A DNA stretch of 64,000 nucleotides from Methyloceanibacter superfactus (GTDB taxonomy: Bacteria; Pseudomonadota; Alphaproteobacteria; Rhizobiales; Methyloligellaceae), in contig NZ_LPWF01000016.1 in NCBI RefSeq assembly GCF_001723305.1, positions 62,001 to 126,000 on the forward strand, written 5' to 3'. The notes beneath the pieces are model-generated. The model had not been told where the DNA came from and did no database searches. It saw nothing but the letters and a program-made list of their open reading frames with translations. This document shows, piece by piece, positions 5,001 to 57,372 of the stretch; position 1 is the first letter of the stretch; each line of letters begins with the position of its first letter. A program made the position numbers and the translations under genes.

Positions 5001-5258
5001 ATGTACAAAGCCTGGATGGATCTTGCCTTCGCGTCGGCACAGCTATGGCGCGAAGCGCAGGAAGTCATGATGCTGCGCACCATGAAGATTGCGCTCGGCG
5101 ATGCCGCCAGCCATCGCGAGGCGCAGCGGATGGTGATGGAGAAGGGCTTTGCGCTCGCCGAGGCCATGGGAACGCTCGCCATGGGCGGCTCGATGCACAA
5201 GGTCGTGGGCCGGTACCGCAGCCAAGTCCGGGCCAATAAGCGCCGGCTCACCCGCTAA
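5001..5258 (+). CDS. Small hypothetical protein, helical
   Basis: An 85-residue protein starting MYKAWMDLAFASAQLW, with GGGGA nine bases upstream of the ATG. The sequence is predicted to be largely helical and methionine-rich (VMMLRTMKIALGD, RMVMEKGFALAEAMGTLAMGG) with a basic C-terminus. The layout is reminiscent of short phasin-like or Hyphomicrobiales-specific proteins, but I recognise no named family. It follows the DUF883 gene by 72 bases and may be cotranscribed with it. Confidence 0.6.
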   Translation: MYKAWMDLAFASAQLWREAQEVMMLRTMKIALGDAASHREAQRMVMEKGFALAEAMGTLAMGGSMHKVVGRYRSQVRANKRRLTR

Positions 5259-5419
5259 CCTTACCGTCGGCATTGCTCACTTGGTCCGCGCTCAAGCCGC
5301 GCGGAGCGCGGTGGCGCGAGCGACAACCTCGCCTCTGGTACGGGTGCGAAGCGAACCTTACCTTTCCCTCGCGCGTTGTCTTTGCACCTGACGTCCCCGC
5401 CTCAAGAGGCCATCTGAAA

Positions 5420-5903
5420 ATGCGAATCCTCTCCGCCGCTTGCCGGTCCGTGTTGCTGCCCGCCGCGATTTTGCTGCTGATGCTGGCGCCGGCGCGCGCG
5501 ACGATATGGACTGCGTGTCGACCACGTTCCGCATGCTGTCGCCCAACGACAAGGTGTGCATCAGCGAGTTCGACGATCCGAAGGTGCCCGGCGTCACCTG
5601 CTATATCTCCCAGGCGCGCAAAGGCGGCTGGGGCCAGCCGCTCGGCCTGAACGAGGACCCGTCCAACTTCTCGGTGACGTGCCGTCAAATGGGGCCGGTG
5701 ACGGTGGACCTCAAAACGCTGCCGGAACGTGAGGAAGCCTTCAGCGAGAAGACCAGCATCTTCTTCAAGAAGACCCGCATCTATCGGATCCCCGACCTGA
5801 AGCGGAACGCGCTGGTCTATCTTGCCATCAGCGCCAAGATCATCGACGGCTCGCCGGCCAACGCCATCAGCGCGGTGCCGATCATCCTTGGCCGTCCGAG
5901 TAA
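5420..5903 (+). CDS. creA: CreA family protein, frameshifted
   Basis: About 160 residues. A signal peptide (MRILSAACRSVLLPAAILLLM) ends in APARA and leads into DDMDCVSTTFRMLSPNDKVC, SEFDDPKVPGVTCYISQARK and KALV-like YLAISAKIIDGSP, matching the conserved CreA fold. CreA is a small periplasmic protein of unknown biochemical function first seen in the E. coli cre region. One missing G near 5497, after a run of GC dinucleotides, separates the signal peptide from the mature part. In the sequence as given the frame reads on into the metallopeptidase; a single missing base near 5896 would place the TAA at 5901-5903 in frame, which I take as the true end. Confidence 0.8.
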
Positions 5904-5919
5904 AGGCGAGACGCGGACC

Positions 5920-6971
5920 ATGCGGACCTTCTCCTGCATATGCGGGCAAACGCTGTTCTTCGAGAACGTGGCTTGCGAGGCCTGTGGCCGCGAGGTCGGG
6001 TGGTGCCCGTCCTGCCGCACCATCGCCGCGCTCGAGCCGCTCGGCGACGGGACCTATCGCTGCGCCAATGGGACGTGTGGCGCGGTGCTCGTCAAATGCG
6101 CCAACTATACCGTGGAGAATGTCTGCAACCGCTGTCTGCCCGTGGGCGATGCGGTCAATGGCGGCCTATGCGACGCTTGCCGGTTCAACCGCACCATCCC
6201 GGATCTGTCGCTTCCGGGAACCGCGAGCGCTGGGCCGAGCTCGAGGCGGCCAAGCGCCGATTGTTCTACACTCTCGACTTTCTCGGGCTGCCCTATGGAT
6301 CGGCGGCGGACGGGTTCTCGCCGCCGCTCGCCTTCGACTTCAAGGCGGACACGATTCCGGAGGAGGGGTTCTGGCGCTGGATGGGCCAGGGCGAGCGCGT
6401 CTATACGGGGCACGCCGACGGCACGATCACCATCAATATCCGCGAGGCGGACAGCGTCGAGCGGGAGAAGCTCCGTGTCGATCTCGGCGAGGCGCACCGC
6501 ACGCTGATCGGACATTTCCGCCACGAGATCGGCCACTATTACTGGGACCTGCTGGTGCGCGGGCAGCACGAGGACGGCTTCAAGGCCCTGTTCGGCGATC
6601 ACGAGGACCCGCCTTACCAAGACGCCATGGCGCGCCATTACGGCGAGGGGCCGCCGCCTGACTGGAGGGACCGCTTCGTCAGCGCCTACGCCACCATGCA
6701 TCCGTGGGAGGACTGGGCGGAGACCTTCGCGCTCTATCTCGACATCACCAGCGTGCTCGATACCGCCGTCAACATGGGGCTGATCGGGCCGGTCGATTTC
6801 AGCGACCTGCAAGCCATGGTCGGCCGCTATCGCCAGCTCGGGCTCGTGCTCAATGAGCTCAACCGGGAGATGGGCCTGATCGACGTGGTGCCCGAGGTGC
6901 TGCATGCGGCCGTGGTGGAGAAGCTGGGCTTCGTCCACACGCTGGTCCGTCAGCAGGCGCCGGGCGGCTAG
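5920..6971 (+). CDS. Zinc-ribbon putative zinc-binding metallopeptidase, frameshifted
   Basis: About 350 residues. The N-terminus has a chain of cysteine pairs (CICG, CEACG, CPSC, CNRC, CDAC), a double zinc ribbon. The second part has a gluzincin-like active site: HFRHEIGHYYWD (HExxH variant HEIGH) and WEDWAETFALYLD, where the downstream Glu is the probable third ligand. This matches the putative zinc-binding metallopeptidase family. The frame breaks near 6226; adding one C in CCGGGAACC joins LSLPG to NRERWAELEAAKRR. The ATG follows the inferred creA stop by 16 bases, so the two genes are probably cotranscribed. Substrate unknown. Confidence 0.8.
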
Positions 6972-48236: not shown

Positions 48237-48686
48237 TTGAACAGATTTACCGTTGCCGACATCCGCCTTGCGTTGACCGTCGCGGTCCTTTCGCTCGCGC
48301 TGCCACTGCTCGCGTCATCGCTGCGCGCCGAAGACATGTCTGGTCAAGACATGGCTGGTCAAGACATGGACGCGATGCCCGACGCCGCCGAGAATCCAAA
48401 TCTGGAATGCGCCACCGAACCGTTGAGCGGGAGCGGTCCCGGCTTCTCCAGTTCGCGGGACGCCTCGGAGGAAGCCGCGCGCGCCGCGTGGCTCGAGAAG
48501 GCGAAGGCCGTCTATCCGGAAGCGACTTGGGAGACCGCCAAGGACGCGGACGTGGCCTGCGCGGTGCAAGGTCTCTACAGCAAATGTTTCGCGCAAGGCA
48601 TTCCCTGCCGGCCGAAAGCAGCCGACGCCGATGATGCGGACGCCGCCGCAGCGGCGCCGGAGAGCGACACGCCGAAGCCCGAGTGA
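48237..48686 (+). CDS. Small exported hypothetical protein with short repeats
   Basis: A 149-residue protein with a signal peptide ending SSLRA. A short repeat (SGQDMAGQDMDAM) opens the mature part; the core ECATEPLSGSGPGFSSSRD, AARAAWLEKAKAVYPEATWE and YSKCFAQGIPCRPK contains four cysteines likely to form disulfides. The C-terminus is acidic (ADADDADAAAAAPESD). No named family. GGGAGGGAACC precedes the GTG/ATG region, and the ATG at 48240 is an equal candidate with the TTG at 48237. Confidence 0.65.
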   Translation: MNRFTVADIRLALTVAVLSLALPLLASSLRAEDMSGQDMAGQDMDAMPDAAENPNLECATEPLSGSGPGFSSSRDASEEAARAAWLEKAKAVYPEATWETAKDADVACAVQGLYSKCFAQGIPCRPKAADADDADAAAAAPESDTPKPE

Positions 48687-49189: not shown

Positions 49190-49461
49190 ATGATGAGAAT
49201 GTTCGCCGCGATCCTGCTCGGCCTCACGATGTGCGGGGCGGCCCTGCCGAAGACGCCGCGGCCGACGCCAAGCCGCCGGCTCAGCCGGTGTGCAAGCGCG
49301 CGGAGATCAATCCGGTGACCGGCGCCGTGCTGTGCATCGATCCGCTCGGCGCGCCGGTGGAAGCGCCGCCGCCGGAGGACGCCCCGCCTTGCAAGCCGGG
49401 CCAGCATAAGGGCGAGGCCTGGACCTGGGGCCCGACCTGCACGGAAACGCCGGAAGGCTGA
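49190..49461 (+). CDS. Small exported hypothetical protein, frameshifted
   Basis: About 90 residues: a signal peptide (MMRMFAAILLGLTMCGAA), then after one missing G or C near 49240 the mature part EDAAADAKPPAQPVCKRAEI, PVTGAVLCIDPLGAPVE and PPCKPGQHKGEAWTWGPTC with four or five cysteines. It is probably secreted and disulfide-bonded. No family recognised. AAGAGAAAGAGAG lies just upstream of the ATG. Confidence 0.6.
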
Positions 49462-49531
49462 GGCTGTCAGCGGGGTGGCGCGCTCCTCGTACGGAGGACT
49501 AACATCTCCGAAATGACGCGAGGGGGAGGAC

Positions 49532-50224
49532 ATGGACGATCTGGCGGCGATCTTCAGTTTCAGCAACTTGCCCGGTCATGTGTCTTACGCGCTGATCGCG
49601 CTGTCCTATTGGATGACCAATATGTTCTGGTTGCGGGTGGTGGCGGTGGTCGGGCTCGCGCTCGAGATCGTCTACTTCCTCTCCACCGGCGGGGATTTAC
49701 GCGCCGGGATCGGCTGGGACCTCGTCTTCATCGCCATCAACCTCTATCAGATCTACAGCCTGATGAAGGACCGCCTGTCCTTGCGCCTGCCCGAGGCCGA
49801 TCGCGATCTGCTGCGCAGGGTGCTGGTCGGCCTCGACGATTCACAGATCGCCCGGCTCGTCGTGGCCAGCGATCTGCGCGACATTCCCGAGGGCACGACC
49901 TTGGCCGAAGAGGGCGAGGTGCTCGGAACGCTCTTCTTCATCTGCTCCGGCCGCGTCCAGGTCAGCATTGCCGGCCGCGATGTCTCGCAGCTCGAACCCG
50001 GGAACTTCGTCGGCGAGGTGGCCTTTCTGACCGAGCGGCCCGCATCGGCGACGGTGGTGTGCCGGACCCCCGTGCGGGCGCTCGCCTTCGAGCGCGGCAA
50101 GCTCAATCAATTCTTCAAGAACGAGACGGAGGTCGCGGGGCTGATCTATCAGCTCATCGGCCGCGAGCTCGCCCACAAGATGAAAGTCAGCAACAGCCTG
50201 CTCGCCGGGGGGAGCTTCGCCTAG
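49532..50224 (+). CDS. Popeye-like membrane protein with cyclic-nucleotide-binding domain
   Basis: A 230-residue protein. Three membrane segments (about residues 15-35, 37-50, 58-80) are followed by a cyclic-nucleotide-binding domain with IPEGTTLAEEGEVLGTLFFIC, the strand GRVQVSIAGRDVSQLEPG, and the phosphate-binding cassette region NFVGEVAFLTERPASATVV (cut: GEVAFL...RPASATV). The cassette has Glu and an RxA-type Arg, consistent with cAMP binding. The layout matches bacterial Popeye-domain proteins. The ATG follows GGGGGAGG. Confidence 0.75.
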   Translation: MDDLAAIFSFSNLPGHVSYALIALSYWMTNMFWLRVVAVVGLALEIVYFLSTGGDLRAGIGWDLVFIAINLYQIYSLMKDRLSLRLPEADRDLLRRVLVGLDDSQIARLVVASDLRDIPEGTTLAEEGEVLGTLFFICSGRVQVSIAGRDVSQLEPGNFVGEVAFLTERPASATVVCRTPVRALAFERGKLNQFFKNETEVAGLIYQLIGRELAHKMKVSNSLLAGGSFA

Positions 50225-50313
50225 ACCGGCCGGCACGCCCGCCGTGAGGTGAGTGACGCGCACCCGGCAAACGCAAACGATTTGTTTGCTTCGCGCACGC
50301 CACACTCCGCGCC

Positions 50314-50899
50314 ATGGCGCGGATCCTCAAACCTCAATTCGGCAGCCGGCCTCGCCGGCGCTCTCCAAGCACCCCAGGCGCGCCGCCGGAGAAGCGGCGG
50401 CGCTTCGACTGGCAGCTCGTGAGCCTGGTGGCGATCGTGTTCGTGGCGAGCTTCGTGTGGCTGTTCCCGGCGCTCGACGGCCGCACTGGTGTGCTCGTGT
50501 CCTCGCCGGACGCGCCGTCGCGCGGCGCCTGGTCGAGTGCCATTCAGGTGGTGGACGGCGACACGGTGAGACGGGGCGGGGAGACCTACAGGCTCGTGGG
50601 CTTCAACACGCCGGAGCAGGGACGCCATGCCCGTTGCGCACAGGAGCGCGCGCTGGCCTCGCAGGCGACCTCGCGGCTCGGGACTGGTGGGCGCGAGCGA
50701 TGTGGCGCTGGCCCGCGTGGCTTGTTCCTGTCCGCCCGGCACCGAAGGCACGAAGTCCTGCAATCACGGGCGGTTGTGCGGCACCTTGCGAGCGGACGGC
50801 CGCGACGTGGGCGCCATCCTCATCGCCGAAGGCCTGGCCGAAGCTTACGCCTGCGGGGCGACCTCATGCCCGAAGCGCCGCGATTGGTGCGCGGGGTAG
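50314..50899 (+). CDS. Membrane-anchored thermonuclease-like protein, frameshifted
   Basis: About 196 residues. One membrane segment (SLVAIVFVASFVWLFPAL) is followed by an SNase-like domain: VVDGDTVRRGGETYRLVGFN, TPEQGRHARCAQERAL and, in the next frame, LVGASDVALARVACSCPPGT and LIAEGLAEAYACG. The frame breaks near 50687, where two G appear missing from a G run. Repaired, it ends RRDWCAG at 50899. It is a paralogue of the gene at 11-612; here the cysteine-rich CSCPPGTEGTKSCNHGRLCG stretch is distinctive. Confidence 0.75.
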
Positions 50900-50944
50900 G
50901 GCATTCGATCCATCCTGCCCGACAGAGTTTCCCAGAGGCTTGTT

Positions 50945-51877
50945 CTATTCCGAATGGGCAGTTGCCCATGTATCTGTCGCATGGACAAGATCGACTCCGC
51001 ATCGGACGCATGCATTGATCCGATTGCGAACAATGGGGCCGGTGAGCAATATTCGAGAGCCGATAGGTTGGCAGCTATATTCCGGATGCCCGCTCATCTC
51101 GTCCTTGAATTTTTGATCAATGACTCCAGCGCGATGCGCGATGAGATGCCTGAGCTTTTCAGTGTGTCTTAGCTCGGGGTGGAACGCCTTATCGATTTCC
51201 CCTTTGAACGCTCGCTTGTACGCTTCTTGAATCCCGTTCAGGCTATCAAATGTAACTTTCTTGGTATCGCGCAGAACGCGGCCCCCCACCTTGGAGATAT
51301 CTCCGCCGTAACCGGCCACCACATTTGCAGGCAACTGCTTATCGCCCAGAGCGTTGGCTGCCAGTTTGAAGTGTATATCTACTATCGCTACCCACAAATC
51401 GGCCGCGAGCGTCTCAAACGCAGAGTACGCAGACGTAATCATGGCAGCCAGCATGGCCTCAAGTGCAGCTCGGCCAGGATGTCCCGGGCCAAGGAGAAAC
51501 TTTAGATTGTGGGCTCCGTAATCAAAGGCCGTCTTACTTGCCCACTCAGAGTCTCGGATAATGTATCCGGCAACGCGCTTCCCCAGTGCGTCACGATAGC
51601 TATCTTCTTTGTCTTTGGAGGGATCGTTTGGGGCGACGCCACACTCGTACCGCGATTCGCAGATTGCGCGCTCGAAAGACCCAGCTAAGAACATCAACTG
51701 TAGGGGCATTTCGCCGAACAGCACCACCCGCCGAAGGTTTTCTGTAAAAGTGCTCACGATGGGAGCATATGCTTGCGTAGTCAGCTCGGAGGCTAGCCCC
51801 TCGAACTCACGGCTGAACAGGAACGCTTCCTCAAACAGATAGTCCTTCGGTTCGGCTTTCCATCTTGAGCCTACCAC
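50945..51877 (-). CDS. HEPN-like hypothetical protein in an AT-richer island
   Basis: A 310-residue soluble protein. The C-terminal half has helices around ITSAYSAFETLAADLWVAIV and EKLRHLIAHRAGVIDQKF; the RHLIAH segment (Arg243 to His248) fits the R-x4-H active site of HEPN ribonuclease domains. The N-terminal half (about 1-130) is helical and of unknown role. It starts with GTG after GGGAGA. Composition is visibly more AT-rich than neighbours. HEPN proteins are common in toxin-antitoxin, abortive infection and CRISPR effectors; no partner gene stands beside this one. Confidence 0.7.
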   Translation of the reverse strand: MVGSRWKAEPKDYLFEEAFLFSREFEGLASELTTQAYAPIVSTFTENLRRVVLFGEMPLQLMFLAGSFERAICESRYECGVAPNDPSKDKEDSYRDALGKRVAGYIIRDSEWASKTAFDYGAHNLKFLLGPGHPGRAALEAMLAAMITSAYSAFETLAADLWVAIVDIHFKLAANALGDKQLPANVVAGYGGDISKVGGRVLRDTKKVTFDSLNGIQEAYKRAFKGEIDKAFHPELRHTEKLRHLIAHRAGVIDQKFKDEMSGHPEYSCQPIGSRILLTGPIVRNRINACVRCGVDLVHATDTWATAHSE

Positions 51878-52183
51878 TGGCTGGTCTCCCGTAACAAACG
51901 TCGCATTGTGGCTGGCATGTCGTCATCGATAGCAAGGCAGCACGTCTCATGCGGTCGCTCATAACGCATCGGCTTCCAGCTTGTCACGTCAAGCTGTCCC
52001 GGCTTAGGGTGCATAATTAGGAATAAATCCCTTGACAGCGTGACGCTGATGAGCTAGGTTTCAGCTACAACGCGACAGGTGGGCGGCGGCGCTTAGCGCC
52101 AAGACATTTCGCCCGCCGCGTTGTGAGACGCCGCTCCCAGAGATGGGGCGGCGTTATTGGTTTTGAGGGGGCTTTGAGTGGGG
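51878..52183. other. Intergenic region upstream of the HEPN-like gene
   Basis: About 305 bases with no supported gene. It includes the AT-rich stretch GCATAATTAGGAATAAATCC at 52011-52030 and a TTGACAGCGTGACG segment, which could be a -35 element facing right. The change from AT-rich to GC-rich sequence near 52070 may mark the island boundary. Confidence 0.4.
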
Positions 52184-52345
52184 CTATCGCCCCATCAGGC
52201 AGATGCGCACGCAGGCGAAGGCGAACACGCCGCCGATCATGCCGACATAGGCGCCGCCGCGCTCCACGAGAAATTCGCCGACGAGGCCGCCGAAGATCGC
52301 GGCGGCGATCAGGCCGAAACCCCAAACGGCGATTGTCCTCAGCAT
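52184..52345 (-). CDS. Small membrane protein
   Basis: A 53-residue protein that is nearly all membrane: LRTIAVWGFGLIAAAIFGGL and GAYVGMIGGVFAFACVRICL form two hydrophobic helices joined by a short polar loop (VGEFLVERG). No family recognised. The frame extends 20 codons further upstream, but the inner Met directly before the first helix is the likelier start. Confidence 0.55.
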   Translation of the reverse strand: MLRTIAVWGFGLIAAAIFGGLVGEFLVERGGAYVGMIGGVFAFACVRICLMGR

Positions 52346-52425
52346 GCCGCCTCCAGACGCGGGCAAGGCCGCCTGAAAAGGCCCCTTTCGGCCGAGAGAC
52401 TTCATTTCCAGGCCCGCATCATACC

Positions 52426-52593
52426 ATGACCCAGGACGATCCTCTCGATCGAAGCAGCGGCACGCCCGCCGATCCGGAGAGACCGGACGACCGCGACTGG
52501 GAGCCGGTGCGGGACGACTTTCTCTATAGCGGCATGGCGCAGCGGTGCATGGGCGCGTCCGCCATGGTAGCTTTTTCCTCGGGCATTATTTGA
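52426..52593 (+). CDS. Small hypothetical protein
   Basis: A 55-residue frame: MTQDDPLDRSSGTPADPERP, then DDRDWEPVRDDFLYSGMAQR. The acidic, Asp/Arg-rich first part looks protein-like; the end MVAFSSGII may be out of frame. It lies 12 bases before the next small membrane protein and is on the same strand. No family recognised. Confidence 0.4.
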   Translation: MTQDDPLDRSSGTPADPERPDDRDWEPVRDDFLYSGMAQRCMGASAMVAFSSGII

Positions 52594-52604
52594 GGGAGGC
52601 ACCC

Positions 52605-52802
52605 ATGGCGCTGCGACTGACACCACCGACCAAGAATATCTTCTATCTGTCGACGCTCTGCGCGATCGTCGCCTTCGTCCTCTATCTGCTCGGCGTGCTC
52701 GGCGTGGTCGGCGCGGAGATCCCGACCCTGGCGGTCGCCTTCTGGGTCGGCATGCTGGCCTGGGGGCTGATGACGGCGGGCGTGGCGCTGAAGGGCGTCT
52801 AG
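52605..52802 (+). CDS. Small conserved two-helix membrane protein
   Basis: A 65-residue protein: MALRLTPPTKNIFYLSTLCA then two hydrophobic helices (IVAFVLYLLGVLGVVG and LAVAFWVGMLAWGLMTAG). The opening LRLTPPTKNxFYLS is a pattern I associate with a common short Rhizobiales membrane protein. GAGGGAGG precedes the ATG by about five bases. Function unknown. Confidence 0.7.
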   Translation: MALRLTPPTKNIFYLSTLCAIVAFVLYLLGVLGVVGAEIPTLAVAFWVGMLAWGLMTAGVALKGV

Positions 52803-52852
52803 CCGCCTCGTCGCCGGGGCTTCGTCAGCCTCGTTCCTCGAAAGATATCAAC

Positions 52853-53422
52853 ATGCTGCAACGCTTTGGCGAAACCTTGCCGGAGCGCGAGGTCAAGTTC
52901 GCGCCCGTCGATCTCAAGTCGGTCGAGGCCAACGGCACGTTCTCGGGCTATGCCAGCCTGTTCGGCACGGTCGATCTCGGTCAGGACCTGGTGATGCCGG
53001 GGGCCTTCCGCGATAGCCTCGCCGCGCGCGGCACCCGCGGCGTGAAGCTCCTGTTCCAGCACGACCCCAACGAGCCGATCGGCGTGTGGCTCGAGCTCAA
53101 CGAGGACGGCCGCGGCTTGCATGCGCGCGGACGGCTGATGCCGGAGGTGACCCGGGCACGGGAAGTCTTGAGCCTGATGCGGGCCGGCGCGCTCGACGGA
53201 CTCTCCATCGGCTTCCGCACGGTGCAGGGGCGTACGGACCCGGCATCCGGCGTGCGCCGTCTCGACAAGATCGATCTGTGGGAGATCTCGGTGGTGACCT
53301 TCCCCATGCTGCCCGAGGCGCGGGTGAGCACGGTGAAGCGGCGGGCGACTCCAAAGCGCGGCGATCTCTCACATCTGGCGCGCAGCCTCCGCCGCGGCGC
53401 CCAAGCGATGCGGGCACGCTAG
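52853..53422 (+). CDS. HK97-family prohead protease (gene transfer agent type)
   Basis: A 189-residue protease. NGTFSGYASLFGTVDLGQDL, VMPGAFRDSLAAR, VKLLFQHDPNEPIGVW with the catalytic-type His, EVLSLMRAGALDGLSIGFR with the Ser region, and LWEISVVTFPMLPEA are the family blocks. It matures capsids by cleaving the major head protein. In Alphaproteobacteria such a protein commonly belongs to the gene transfer agent cluster, but the usual neighbours (terminase, portal, major capsid) are absent here. The C-terminus is basic. Confidence 0.9.
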   Translation: MLQRFGETLPEREVKFAPVDLKSVEANGTFSGYASLFGTVDLGQDLVMPGAFRDSLAARGTRGVKLLFQHDPNEPIGVWLELNEDGRGLHARGRLMPEVTRAREVLSLMRAGALDGLSIGFRTVQGRTDPASGVRRLDKIDLWEISVVTFPMLPEARVSTVKRRATPKRGDLSHLARSLRRGAQAMRAR

Positions 53423-53448
53423 TCCGACACTAATCCAGAGAGTCTGGG

Positions 53449-54140
53449 ATGTTTGTACCCGACGCGGGCCGCGCGGCCTCGCGCGCGCTTCATCGCGCGG
53501 GCTGGCTCCTGCATGCGTATGTGGTGGAGACGAAGCTCTGCGCGCTGCGCGACGCGGTCAATAAATATGACCCGAACCAGCCGCGCGTGCCCGCCGGCCA
53601 TCCCGACGGCGGGCAGTGGACGGATACGGGTGGCGGTACCGGTGGGCGGCTGCCACGCGGTCCGGGAACGCTTCTCGACGTCGACGATGGTCCGTCCGAA
53701 GGTTGGAGAGGCAGATACGCGGTCTCGATCCAAATTGGCGACCCACTCCAAGTTTCGTCGAAACAGTACAAGGTGAGATTGATGCTACGAGAGCAGAAGT
53801 CCGCCAGGCGGCGGCCTATCTCTACGAGTTACGTGTGCGCGAGGTCGGGCCAGGGCCCTATGCCAAGCGGTCATTTCCCGCGAGAGGTCCGGACGTCAAA
53901 CTGAACCGGTCCGAGCAAGTTGAGAACAATCGCAACGGACGCGAAGATGGCTGCCACTCTTGTGGTACAAGAAATCCTGGCATGCCTAGCGGAAACTTTG
54001 TTGGAGATCATCAAAGGCCCAGTGCGCTCATTCGGCCTGGTGAAACGCAGCGGATATACCCTCAATGCCGGTCTTGCAGTCAACGTCAGGGTGGCCACGT
54101 CGGGGCGCTGTCGAGGAACAAAAACAGGAACGAGAAATGA
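53449..54140 (+). CDS. Putative polymorphic-type toxin with zinc-nuclease C-terminus, frameshifted
   Basis: About 230 residues. The N-terminal half contains KYDPNQPRVPAGHPDGGQWT, a linker block frequent in Rhizobiales proteins fused to varied C-terminal domains. After a frame break near 53705 the C-terminal part reads EGPGPYAKRSFP-like, then EDGCHSCGTRNPG, NFVGDHQRPSAL and YPQCRSCSQRQGGHVG. Two CxxC pairs and the GDHQ motif suggest a zinc-stabilised HNH-type nuclease. The stop overlaps the next start by four bases (ATGA), as in toxin-immunity pairs. Composition drifts AT-richer toward the 3' end. The toxin role is inferred from layout, not shown. Confidence 0.6.
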
Positions 54141-54508
54141 TCCAGCGGGTGAAGATCGCACCTCCATATTCGATCATGTTCCTATCTGGCGAAGAAGATT
54201 GCGAGATTCCCGACATTCCGCGGGAGTCGAAGGATTTGGTCTGGTCGACACCCTCTTGCATCGTGGTGGGGTGCTATCCGCAAATGGATGGAGAGACCGA
54301 GATCACTGTTGGTCCTGCGCACGAAGTCGATCCAGGATACTCGCCGAGCTTTGAGGGAACGCTCGAGACGCCGAATTGGGCAATCGTTGTCTCGACCGCT
54401 GAGGGGAAGGAGATTTTGGAGGTCCCGGTTGCGAAAAGAGAGACCGCGCTGCGGATTTGGCAGAGCCATCCTCAATGGCCGGAGAAAGTCACCGTTGGCC
54501 TGGGGTAA
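54137..54508 (+). CDS. Putative immunity protein
   Basis: A 123-residue acidic protein with no membrane segment. IQRVKIAPPYSIMFLSGEED, DLVWSTPSCIVVGCYPQMDG and NWAIVVSTAEGKEILEVPVA suggest a small alpha/beta fold. I recognise no family. Its start is coupled by an ATGA overlap to the preceding putative toxin gene, and its composition is AT-richer than the chromosome, both typical of immunity proteins. Immunity function is inferred from position only. Confidence 0.55.
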   Translation: MIQRVKIAPPYSIMFLSGEEDCEIPDIPRESKDLVWSTPSCIVVGCYPQMDGETEITVGPAHEVDPGYSPSFEGTLETPNWAIVVSTAEGKEILEVPVAKRETALRIWQSHPQWPEKVTVGLG

Positions 54509-54601
54509 GCTTTGTATCAAGCCGCAGAAGCGGATGATGCACGGGAAATGATGAGAGTCTCGGACGACGGCTCTTACGTGCCGAGCTAGGGAGCAGGCGC
54601 A

Positions 54602-55366
54602 ATGCTCGATTTCAAGGATAAGGTCGTATTGATCACCGGCGGCGCGCAAGGCTTCGGCCGCGTGCTGGCGAATGCGTTTGCCGAACGGGGCGCGAAGCTC
54701 GCTTTGTGCGACATCAACGATGAGGGCGGTGAGGAGACGCTGGCGCAGGTGAAGGCTCACGGCACGGACGGCTTTTACCAACACGCCGACATTGCCCAAG
54801 AGTCCGACGTCGAGAGTTTCGTGGCGGCGACGGTGAAGCGCTTCGGCCGGCTCGACGTCGCCATCAACAACGCGTCCAAGGAGATCACCGGTCCGACGCT
54901 CGACCTGCCGTCGGAGGATTTCGGCACCGTGGTCGACACCAATCTGAAGGGCACCTATTACTGCCTCAAGCACGAGGTCGCGCAGATGCGTAAGAACGGG
55001 GGCGGGGCGATCGTCAACCAGGCCTCCGTCACCAGCAGCATGACCGGCGTGCCGGACAACGGCCTCTACGCGGCGACCAAGGGCGGCATTATCGGGCTGA
55101 CCAAGTCCGCCGCGCTCCAAGTGGCGCCCGAGAACATCTCGATCAACGCGATCGCGTCCTGCGCCTTCGACATTCCGGACGACATGTTCCTGCGCTGGAT
55201 CGACGATCATAAGGTGAGCCGCAAGGAGGCGTGCGGCTGGCTGCCGATCAAGCGCCTCGGCAAGCCTGAAGAGATCGCCGCGGCCACGCTCTATCTGGCA
55301 TCCGACGAGGCGCGCTTCGTGGTCGGCGCGGTGCTGACCATCGACGGCGGGTTCACCGCGCAATGA
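54602..55366 (+). CDS. Short-chain dehydrogenase/reductase (SDR)
   Basis: A 254-residue classical SDR. The cofactor motif is TGGAQGFGRVLA, the NNAS segment and YAATKGGIIGLTKSAA carry the active-site Tyr and Lys, with Ser in SVTSSMTG. ALCDINDEGG after strand 2 (acidic residue) suggests NAD preference. A closing GAVLTIDGGFTA is normal. Substrate unknown. The next gene begins inside its stop codon (ATGA), so the two are coupled. Confidence 0.9.
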   Translation: MLDFKDKVVLITGGAQGFGRVLANAFAERGAKLALCDINDEGGEETLAQVKAHGTDGFYQHADIAQESDVESFVAATVKRFGRLDVAINNASKEITGPTLDLPSEDFGTVVDTNLKGTYYCLKHEVAQMRKNGGGAIVNQASVTSSMTGVPDNGLYAATKGGIIGLTKSAALQVAPENISINAIASCAFDIPDDMFLRWIDDHKVSRKEACGWLPIKRLGKPEEIAAATLYLASDEARFVVGAVLTIDGGFTAQ

Positions 55367-55650
55367 GCCAAGCTCCGACCAAGAACAAGATCTCGGGCGG
55401 TGTGGTCCACGACCTGCCGGCAGACCTGAAAAAGGCGCTGCTCGCCGATGCCAAGGCGTTGGCGACCTGGGAGGACATCACGCCGCTCGCCCGCAATGAG
55501 TGGATCTGCTGGATCGAGTCGGCCAAGAAGGCGGAGACGCGAACGCACCGCATCGAATGGGGCTGTTCCAGCCTGAACGAGGGAAAGCGCAGGCCCTGTT
55601 GCTGGCCCGGCTGTCCGCACCGCGAGCGGGGCACGAGATCCTCCGCCTGA
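55363..55650 (+). CDS. YdeI/OmpD-associated family protein
   Basis: A 95-residue protein: VVHDLPADLKKALLADAKAL, TPLARNEWICWIESAKKAET and the closing GKRRPCCWPGCPHR. This C-terminal cysteine block is typical of the YdeI/OmpD-associated family, shorter here than the full family. Function unknown. It starts with an ATGA overlap at the SDR stop. An alternate frame at 55500 is open but not family-like. Confidence 0.75.
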   Translation: MSQAPTKNKISGGVVHDLPADLKKALLADAKALATWEDITPLARNEWICWIESAKKAETRTHRIEWGCSSLNEGKRRPCCWPGCPHRERGTRSSA

Positions 55651-55738
55651 CCAACTTCAGTTTGGCCCGCCGCGCCGGGGCCGATAAGGTCCAAACCCGA
55701 AAAGACGTCAGCAGCCGATTGGGAGGTGGAGGGTGAGT

Positions 55739-56524
55739 ATGAAGCGAAGCGTCTGTCTGGGCCTGCTTGTGGCCGCGGCGGTCTCCGTATCAGCGGCGCG
55801 GGCCGAAGAGACCTGCACCAAGATCGTGGCGACCGGCCATCCTGAATATCCCGTCATGGCGTTCAAGGACGGCGACGAGATCAAAGGCGCGGCGCCCAGC
55901 CTCGTCGCCGAGATCGCCGAGGAACTCAAGGTGCCGTTCGAATCCAAATATATGGGCTCGTGGGCGGACGCGCAGACCGCGGCGCGCGAGGGCAAGGCCG
56001 ACATGATCATCGGCATCTATTACAATGACGAGCGCGCCGAATATCTCCAATACGTCCAGCCGCCTTTCGCCTACGATCCGGTGCAGGTGTTTGTCGCCAA
56101 CGATGCGCGGTTCGACTTCAAGGGCCAGAACGATCTCATCGGCAAGAAGGGCGTGGCGAATGAAGGCGAGAGTTTCGGCCCGGCGTTCGACACCTTCATG
56201 AAAGACAAGCTGACGGTGACGCGCGTGGACGGGCTCTCCGCCGCGTTCGACGCCCTCCTGTCAGGCGACGCCGACTATGTGATCGCGGCCTACTATCCCG
56301 GAAGCGCGGAGCTGGCGCGGCTGGGGCTCGGCGAGAAAATCGTTGCCCTGGAACCGGAGCTGTTTTCGGAGGAGTTGTTCGTGGCCTTCTCGAAGAAGTC
56401 GCCTTGCACTGCGCTGTCGCAGAAGTTCGGCGAAGGCATCACGGACATGACGGAGGGCGCCGACTTTCGCGAGATCGTCGGCGAGGCGCTGCGGGACTGG
56501 GACGCCGGGAACCCCCAGGACTAG
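55739..56524 (+). CDS. Periplasmic amino-acid-type solute-binding protein
   Basis: A 261-residue protein with a signal peptide (KRSVCLGLLVAAAVSVSAARA). The mature domain is SBP_bac_3-like: VATGHPEYPVMAFKDGDEIK, ADMIIGIYYNDERAEYLQYV, NDLIGKKGVANEGESFG and GLSAAFDALLSGDADYVIAA. It binds an amino acid or similar small molecule, but no transporter genes are adjacent, so it may be an orphan or a signalling receptor. GGAGGTGGAGG precedes the start; the ATG at 55739 was preferred to the GTG at 55733. Confidence 0.8.
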   Translation: MKRSVCLGLLVAAAVSVSAARAEETCTKIVATGHPEYPVMAFKDGDEIKGAAPSLVAEIAEELKVPFESKYMGSWADAQTAAREGKADMIIGIYYNDERAEYLQYVQPPFAYDPVQVFVANDARFDFKGQNDLIGKKGVANEGESFGPAFDTFMKDKLTVTRVDGLSAAFDALLSGDADYVIAAYYPGSAELARLGLGEKIVALEPELFSEELFVAFSKKSPCTALSQKFGEGITDMTEGADFREIVGEALRDWDAGNPQD

Positions 56525-56553
56525 GAGGTCTAACGTCATTTATTTCCTTCCTC

Positions 56554-56580
56554 ATGCCCGGCCAATGCGCCGGGCATTTT
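56554..56580 (+). terminator. Intrinsic terminator after the solute-binding protein gene
   Basis: A 9-bp perfect stem ATGCCCGGC/GCCGGGCAT around CAATGC, followed by TTT. Confidence 0.8.
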
Positions 56581-56920
56581 CGTTTGATCTTCCCTTTTCG
56601 CTGCCGCGCTTCGCGCTGTCTCTGGCGCTTGATGCCGCAAGATCAGCCCCGCTCACGGCGCGAACGGCTGCGCGCCTAGGCGGGCGCCACGACGATCCCA
56701 AGGGGGATGACCGAGAACGGCGCGCGCGCTTCATCGAGCACGGTACGGTGCGGCGCCCCGCGTCCCCTTGGCTCCTGCCGATTTTTCGGGCGCGTTTACC
56801 TCGCGTTAAGCAGAGTCTCAGAAATATTTTGGTGGGCTCTTTCAAGAGGGCGCGCCGCGAGGTCTGATCTCAAATTCGTGAAGGGGTGGGGCTTTGCGTT
56901 TGGTGCTTCGGTGCCTACAT

Positions 56921-56934
56921 GTTCGTTAACGAAC
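56921..56934. promoter_or_regulatory. Perfect 14-bp palindrome upstream of DUF3168
   Basis: GTTCGTTAACGAAC, directly before the AGGAG site of the DUF3168 gene. It could be an operator. The TTAA core and a following GTTAG loosely recall CtrA binding, but no full TTAA-N7-TTAA site is present. Confidence 0.4.
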
Positions 56935-56950
56935 GTTAGGAGATCCTGCC

Positions 56951-57372
56951 ATGACCGCAGCGAGTTGGGCGCTCCAGAGGAGCATCTACCAGGCGCTGGT
57001 GAACTCGTCCGAGCTGACAACGCTGCTCGGCGGCGACCGCATTTACAGCGACGCGCCGCCCGCGACGCCGTTTCCCTACATCACCCTCGGCCAGACCGTG
57101 AACCAGGATTGGAGCACTGGCACCGAAGACGGGCTCGAGCACAGCCTGACGCTTCATGTCTGGTCGCGCGCCAGCGGCTCGATCGAGGTGCATGAGATCA
57201 TCCAGGTGATCCGGATGGTGCTGCATAATCAGGCGTTGAGCTCGAGGATCATTATTTGGTCAATCTCCGCCACGAGTACACCGAGGCGCGGCTCGATGCG
57301 GACGGCGAGACCCTGCACGGTATCGTGCGCTATCGCGCGGTGACTGAGCCCATGCAGCAGGCCGCGGCCTAA
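56951..57372 (+). CDS. DUF3168 tail-completion-like protein, frameshifted
   Basis: About 140 residues. SWALQRSIYQALVNSSELTT, GGDRIYSDAPPATPFPYITL and LHVWSRASGSIEVHEIIQVI are the DUF3168 blocks. The frame breaks near 57238; one missing C joins HNQALS to LEDHYLVNLRHEYTEARLDA and a normal end at 57372. DUF3168 proteins belong to phage and gene transfer agent head-tail joining modules. No other phage gene flanks this one; it is 3.5 kb from the prohead protease with chromosomal-type genes between. TTAGGAG precedes the ATG. Confidence 0.8.

Follow-up and report, generated by a model that had tools for sequence, protein, structure and literature searches.

A stand-alone HEPN-domain protein with a conserved N-terminal half in a variable slot of Methyloceanibacter superfactus: a candidate single-gene abortive-infection ribonuclease

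We describe a stand-alone gene of Methyloceanibacter superfactus whose product almost certainly ends in a HEPN domain, and which we regard, with moderate confidence, as a candidate single-gene abortive-infection ribonuclease carrying a built-in trigger in its N-terminal half, a layout resembling that of the phage 80alpha protein Tha. The gene lies in the window, that is, the whole stretch of 64,000 nucleotides analyzed here, and its features are listed in Table 1. The first-pass annotation had reported a 310-residue protein with the R-x4-H motif RHLIAH at this place; the open reading frame is indeed intact and the motif comprises residues 243-248. The sequence GGGAG is located 8 bases 5' of the GTG start codon, and the stop-free frame of the gene spans 325 codons, compared with a longest frame of 305 codons and a mean of 124 in 500 first-order Markov simulations.

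Table 1. Features of the HEPN gene, its surroundings and two relatives (positions in the window unless a locus is named)
Feature	Position	Strand	Remarks
HEPN-domain gene, stand-alone	50945..51877	-	intact ORF, 310 codons, GTG start
RHLIAH codons, residues 243-248	51134..51151	-	position calculated from the ORF
C-terminal half, residues 136-310, predicted HEPN domain	50945..51472	-	hhalign against RiboL-PSP-HEPN; Glu155, Arg243, His244, His248, Asp254
N-terminal half, residues 1-135, no known domain	51473..51877	-	family alignment; no profile match
Upstream ORF, 47 codons	51871..52014	-	stop overlaps the HEPN GTG; not conserved, no family match
Variable slot	about 49462..52017	.	empty in G004, HigB-HigA in G013
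Genus-conserved non-coding right border	52018..52171	+	TTGACA promoter-like start, GC-rich terminator-like hairpin; outside the HEPN unit
Prohead protease PF04586	52853-53422		right of the HEPN gene
Tail-completion protein	56951-57343		right of the HEPN gene
Zinc-ribbon-like protein with the same C-terminal motif	L020:694-1704		directly after the C-terminus of a Type ISP restriction enzyme
Zinc-ribbon-like protein with the same C-terminal motif	L013:1441-2712		

According to PMC3710099, an active HEPN site consists of Rx4-6H, in which the Arg is followed by a polar residue, and of an acidic residue upstream, typically within Ex3[KR]. Because R-x4-H arises in 48% of shuffles of the window protein (the stricter R[NDH]x3H in 6%), the motif carries weight only insofar as relatives conserve it. 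Six full-length family members are available, namely the window protein, L002, L015, L005, L006 and L012, the five others sharing 19-26% identity with the window protein, and in all six R243, H248, E155, D193, G199, L236, D254, G273, P58 and A300 are invariant. R[HND]x3H is present in all 12 aligned proteins, in the window protein as R243-H244...H248. The invariant Glu155 is followed at position +4 by Ala and not by the Lys or Arg of the typical Ex3[KR]; apart from this, the site residues are arranged as in the published definition. As a single query the window protein has no family match in Pfam, NCBIfam or PADLOC, and its best E-value against PDB sequences is 0.93. Among the 12 aligned proteins just one, L012, reaches any HEPN family in Pfam (PF18735, HEPN_RiboL-PSP; E 1.3e-4), with 22.3 bits and thus under the Pfam gathering score of 28.4, which is reached neither by the window protein nor by the other 10.

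The HEPN profile search that the first-pass annotation had suggested gives a clear match with the family profile. With hhalign, the family profile matched a profile of 22 RiboL-PSP-HEPN sequences (of 26 matches, omitting the partial L078, L083 and L085 and the stop-containing L082) with a probability of 95.6 and an E-value of 1.2e-8 over 142 columns, Glu155 and Rx4H falling on their RiboL-PSP-HEPN counterparts. The probability was 95.0 without L012, 94.5 without the window protein and 95.8 for the C-terminal half alone; the window protein on its own reached 90.7, but only over its first part, Rx4H not being covered. As controls, 60 column shuffles gave at most 0.3, the reversed profile 0.6 and the unrelated all-helical family Hpt 1.0. 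Against Abi_2 (7 sequences) the family profile scored 2.3, a weak test in which RiboL-PSP itself scores just 1.2, and against HEPN-T (PF05168) it scored 0.1, where RiboL-PSP fails too; the method thus detects the nearest branch only. The best match of the family profile among PDB sequences (E 0.24) is not a HEPN protein. Two AlphaFold2 models, each calculated from a two-sequence alignment, reached pLDDT values of 47.7 and 50.0. In the four-helix HEPN fold the motif terminates helix 3; in both models, too, a helix terminates there and another, long one comes later in the chain, but with pLDDT below 50 in this region the resemblance is too uncertain to count. A Foldseek search with the second, low-confidence model (pLDDT 50.0) returned no match with E below 0.9. 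The frequency of Rx4H in shuffles and the low pLDDT values are what one would expect if the motif had arisen by chance in an unrelated helical protein. This explanation is highly improbable and close to refuted by the profile-profile scores, which lie far over all controls, and the motif is found in 12 of 12 aligned relatives (six of them found via the motif region). The HEPN assignment by the first-pass annotation is supported by sequence comparison, and judged from its conserved site residues the C-terminal half very likely has nuclease activity.

The family resembles RiboL-PSP-HEPN (PF18735; Anantharaman 2013, PMC3710099) in that the alignment runs through the whole HEPN domain and takes in both Rx4H and the helix bearing the conserved Glu, and differs from it by the added N-terminal half and by the residues xx[GA]xxDxx[FY] after the His. 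The resulting signature, Rx4Hxx[GA]xxDxx[FY], is present in 12/12 aligned family proteins and in 0/22 RiboL-PSP-HEPN sequences; the former count is biased, since the six C-terminal-only relatives (L013, L014, L020-L023) were found via profiles already holding the motif region, and only the six full-length members represent fair evidence. The N-terminal parts of L013, L014 and L020 contain zinc-ribbon-like cysteine pairs, with a weak Pfam zinc-ribbon match for L013, and the relatives L022, L023 and L021 are neighbored by an integrase, a Fic protein and a weak ORC/CDC6-like match, respectively. The differing N-terminal parts suggest that a single nuclease module may be joined to interchangeable N-terminal units. 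In an open-access library we found no paper mentioning RiboL-PSP, alone or together with HEPN, and none joining HEPN with the signature strings or with a zinc ribbon and type ISP enzymes. HEPN effectors as a kind are already well known; the branch described here is overlooked by the annotation libraries searched.

The N-terminal half of the window protein had been noted before as unexplained, which still applies: residues 1-135 align across all six full-length members, with Pro58 invariant, yet they have no family match in Pfam, NCBIfam or PADLOC, and the probability against the HEPN profiles tested and the protein's own C-terminal half does not exceed 0.3. A second, degenerate HEPN domain was considered and rejected (0.2 against the C-terminal half, 0.2 against RiboL-PSP). 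The first-pass annotation had also spoken of a built-in control domain. Conservation throughout the family and the lack of likeness to any HEPN profile tested fit this idea, while the control role itself is deduced from the architecture of the protein, by which the N-terminal half probably serves as trigger or sensor.

This architecture has a parallel in Tha (phage 80alpha gp03), which PMC11087260 describes as a single protein of 301 amino acids without a recognisable N-terminal domain and with a C-terminal HEPN domain containing Rx4H; according to the same source, Tha does not slow growth until it is triggered by a phage tail protein, and its catalytic His is required. The window protein thus shares the layout of a single protein of about 300 amino acids that lacks a recognisable N-terminal domain and has a C-terminal HEPN domain with Rx4H. 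No homology to Tha was found (hhalign probability 0.18, best BLASTP E-value 0.3, no kinship beyond the motif), and we therefore propose an analogous way of working and not membership of the Tha family. AbiF/AbiD (Abi_2, PF07751) are similar in belonging to the HEPN superfamily, in acting by abortive infection and in having an RN..AH motif, but they are set apart by the low profile probability of 2.3. The HEPN-MNT or HEPN-T systems (PF05168) also belong to the superfamily, and a PF05168 gene is found beside the same border element in the relative G009; in contrast to these systems, no nucleotidyltransferase partner was recognised here, and the profile probability is 0.1.

If the gene does not encode a self-contained effector, it might encode the toxin of a toxin-antitoxin pair with a role in maintenance and not in phage sensing, the antitoxin being supplied by the overlapping 47-codon ORF, by an antisense or small RNA, or by a gene at an unlinked locus. 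The overlap of this ORF with the start of the HEPN gene would agree with such a pair, as would the occurrence of HigB-HigA in the same slot of G013 and of a HEPN gene with a small ORF by the border element of G009. However, no upstream ORF is common to the six full-length loci, and the 47-amino-acid product is without any match, so that the ORF is probably not a partner of the HEPN gene. Nor was any partner gene common to the members found at the six loci, downstream partners being judged from ORF lists. The conserved border element was ruled out as a dedicated antitoxin because it exists in relatives that lack the HEPN gene. We consider a toxin-antitoxin pair unlikely, and the preferred reading remains that of a single-gene effector.

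The HEPN family is scattered across the phylum. Among 61 close genomes the gene is present only in that of the window and absent from 60 of the 60 others. Searches with the window protein gave matches in 4 of 397 genomes at the level of the order (its own, G162 and two weak ones) and in 6 of 398 at the level of the phylum (its own, G162, G428, G505 and two weak ones). Profile searches gave 6 of 385 genomes at class level, adding a full-length member in G877 and two C-terminal-only proteins, and 8 of 398 at phylum level, adding four C-terminal-only proteins; the Humitalea rosea member L015 came from a search of named genomes. The weak matches L003, L004, L008 and L007, the last discarded on reading its ORFs, are absent from every member count. 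No member was found in plasmid, phage and viral-contig collections in the combinations of collection and query (the window protein or a relative) that were searched, a surprising outcome if this is a defence gene that moves widely. The sole viral-contig match to the motif pattern, L024, proved on reading its frames to have arisen by chance, in a frame that runs opposite to genes for phage structural proteins.

The segment 50945-52060 has a G+C fraction of 0.539 (53.9%) against 0.644 (64.4%) for the window as a whole, and only 2.1% of 1258 sliding 1116-bp segments of the window have an equal or lower value, although five further stretches of the window fall below 0.56. The third-position G+C of the HEPN gene is 0.58, that of five neighboring genes 0.79-0.88. 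In all six full-length members the HEPN gene has a lower G+C than its own flanks, which is in line with separate acquisitions. By eye, there is no classical defence island around any full-length member, and L012 and L015 lie among ordinary-looking chromosomal genes, L015 next to a DUF1194 gene. One family member (L093, in G428) appears to be part of a small integrative element that also includes an AAA_25 gene and an integrase-like ORF and that adjoins rod-shape genes (names assigned by eye except AAA_25). The chromosomal location of the intact gene and the inconspicuous neighborhoods of L012 and L015 could also be explained by an active HEPN ribonuclease acting in host RNA regulation or the stress response and not in defence. 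This seems rather unlikely given the absence of the gene from all other close genomes, its scattered occurrence, the AT-richness of all six members and the location in a variable slot.

Besides the HEPN gene, this slot contains a frame-disrupted gene and a gene for a cyclic-nucleotide-binding protein, and it is bordered on the right by an element without Rfam match, possibly a small RNA. We compared nine stretches from congeners, five of which contain the border element. In G004, the homologue of the gene at 49231-49461 ends 19 bases before the border element and the slot is thus empty; in G013, a HigB-HigA pair is located between the homologous left gene and the border element; and in G005 and G014 the homologue of the gene at 48237-48686 lies about 50 bases from it. 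In G009, the border element has a HEPN gene of PF05168 together with an ORF of 124 codons on its immediate left, the flank further left being non-homologous. These two genes (L060, reverse strand, 5192-5973) overlap, the ORF has no family match, and they are possibly an undescribed pair. G003 lacks the border element; the equivalent place in front of its cluster is taken by a HicB-like gene and an ORF containing PIN_3. G008, G010 and G015, with no border element seen, are uninformative on the slot. The locus, whose occupancy in relatives the first-pass annotation had proposed to compare, is thus indeed occupied by alternative toxin genes or is empty. The earlier description of the gene as standing alone in AT-richer DNA between chromosomal genes holds for the composition, but the gene is not alone: a phage-derived head cluster follows on the right, and the cyclic-nucleotide-binding protein and the frame-disrupted gene share its slot on the left.

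The region at 52184-57343 represents a broken gene-transfer-agent-like cluster of which the prohead protease and the tail-completion protein remain. In G013, terminase and portal genes are located between the border element and the protease; they are not at the corresponding place in the window, and the G013 portal protein has no match in the window's own genome. The pieces of the frame-disrupted gene at 50314-50899 are without Pfam match; by eye, we take it to resemble a thermonuclease-like protein. The AT-richer region at 53449-54508 contains a 'PAGHPDGGQWT' protein split over two frames and then a small ORF, without Pfam match, which by eye we assume to resemble a polymorphic toxin of bacteria paired with its immunity protein. 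On another contig of the same genome (C38:31365-31928) we noted a second HEPN gene, L065, a clear RiboL-PSP-HEPN member (113 bits). The disrupted neighboring frames (by eye) and the missing portal protein raise the question of whether the HEPN gene is itself a decaying relic, an acquired gene that has lost its function, in a gene-transfer-agent region that is decaying as well; its intact frame of 310 codons and the retention of every family-invariant residue make this improbable.

Returning to the single-gene effector, HEPN domains with an Rx4-6H site are metal-independent RNases and usually dimers, as stated in PMC3710099 and PMC11087260. By analogy, the C-terminal half of the window protein would be a metal-independent RNase whose active site, formed by Arg243, His244 and His248 together with Glu155, probably lies in the cleft of a dimer. 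The nuclease would be kept inactive by the first 135 residues, which would release it on meeting a component of an invader. Once released, the RNase would act against phages and other invaders as an effector of dormancy or suicide, so that the infected cell is arrested. Unaccompanied by an antitoxin gene, the HEPN gene would spread horizontally as a single unit and settle in slots used by toxin-antitoxin or defence cargo. A bolder version, in our opinion doubtful, would see in the family a HEPN lineage not yet described, with Rx4Hxx[GA]xxDxx[FY] as its hallmark, in which one RNase module is combined with varied sensors (the helical half without known domain, or zinc ribbons); the window protein would then be a one-protein guard recognising virus structural proteins, placed in a toxin slot by a gene-transfer-agent cluster whose head and tail proteins it must tolerate.

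Since the protein escapes Pfam, NCBIfam and PADLOC, defence annotation misses it. If the proposed function is correct, the known single-gene RNase effectors would be joined by a family whose trigger domain is new, together with a signature motif by which more of them may be found. In its architecture the family would provide another parallel to Tha, and the slot by the gene-transfer-agent cluster would be a chromosomal site at which toxin-type genes replace each other.
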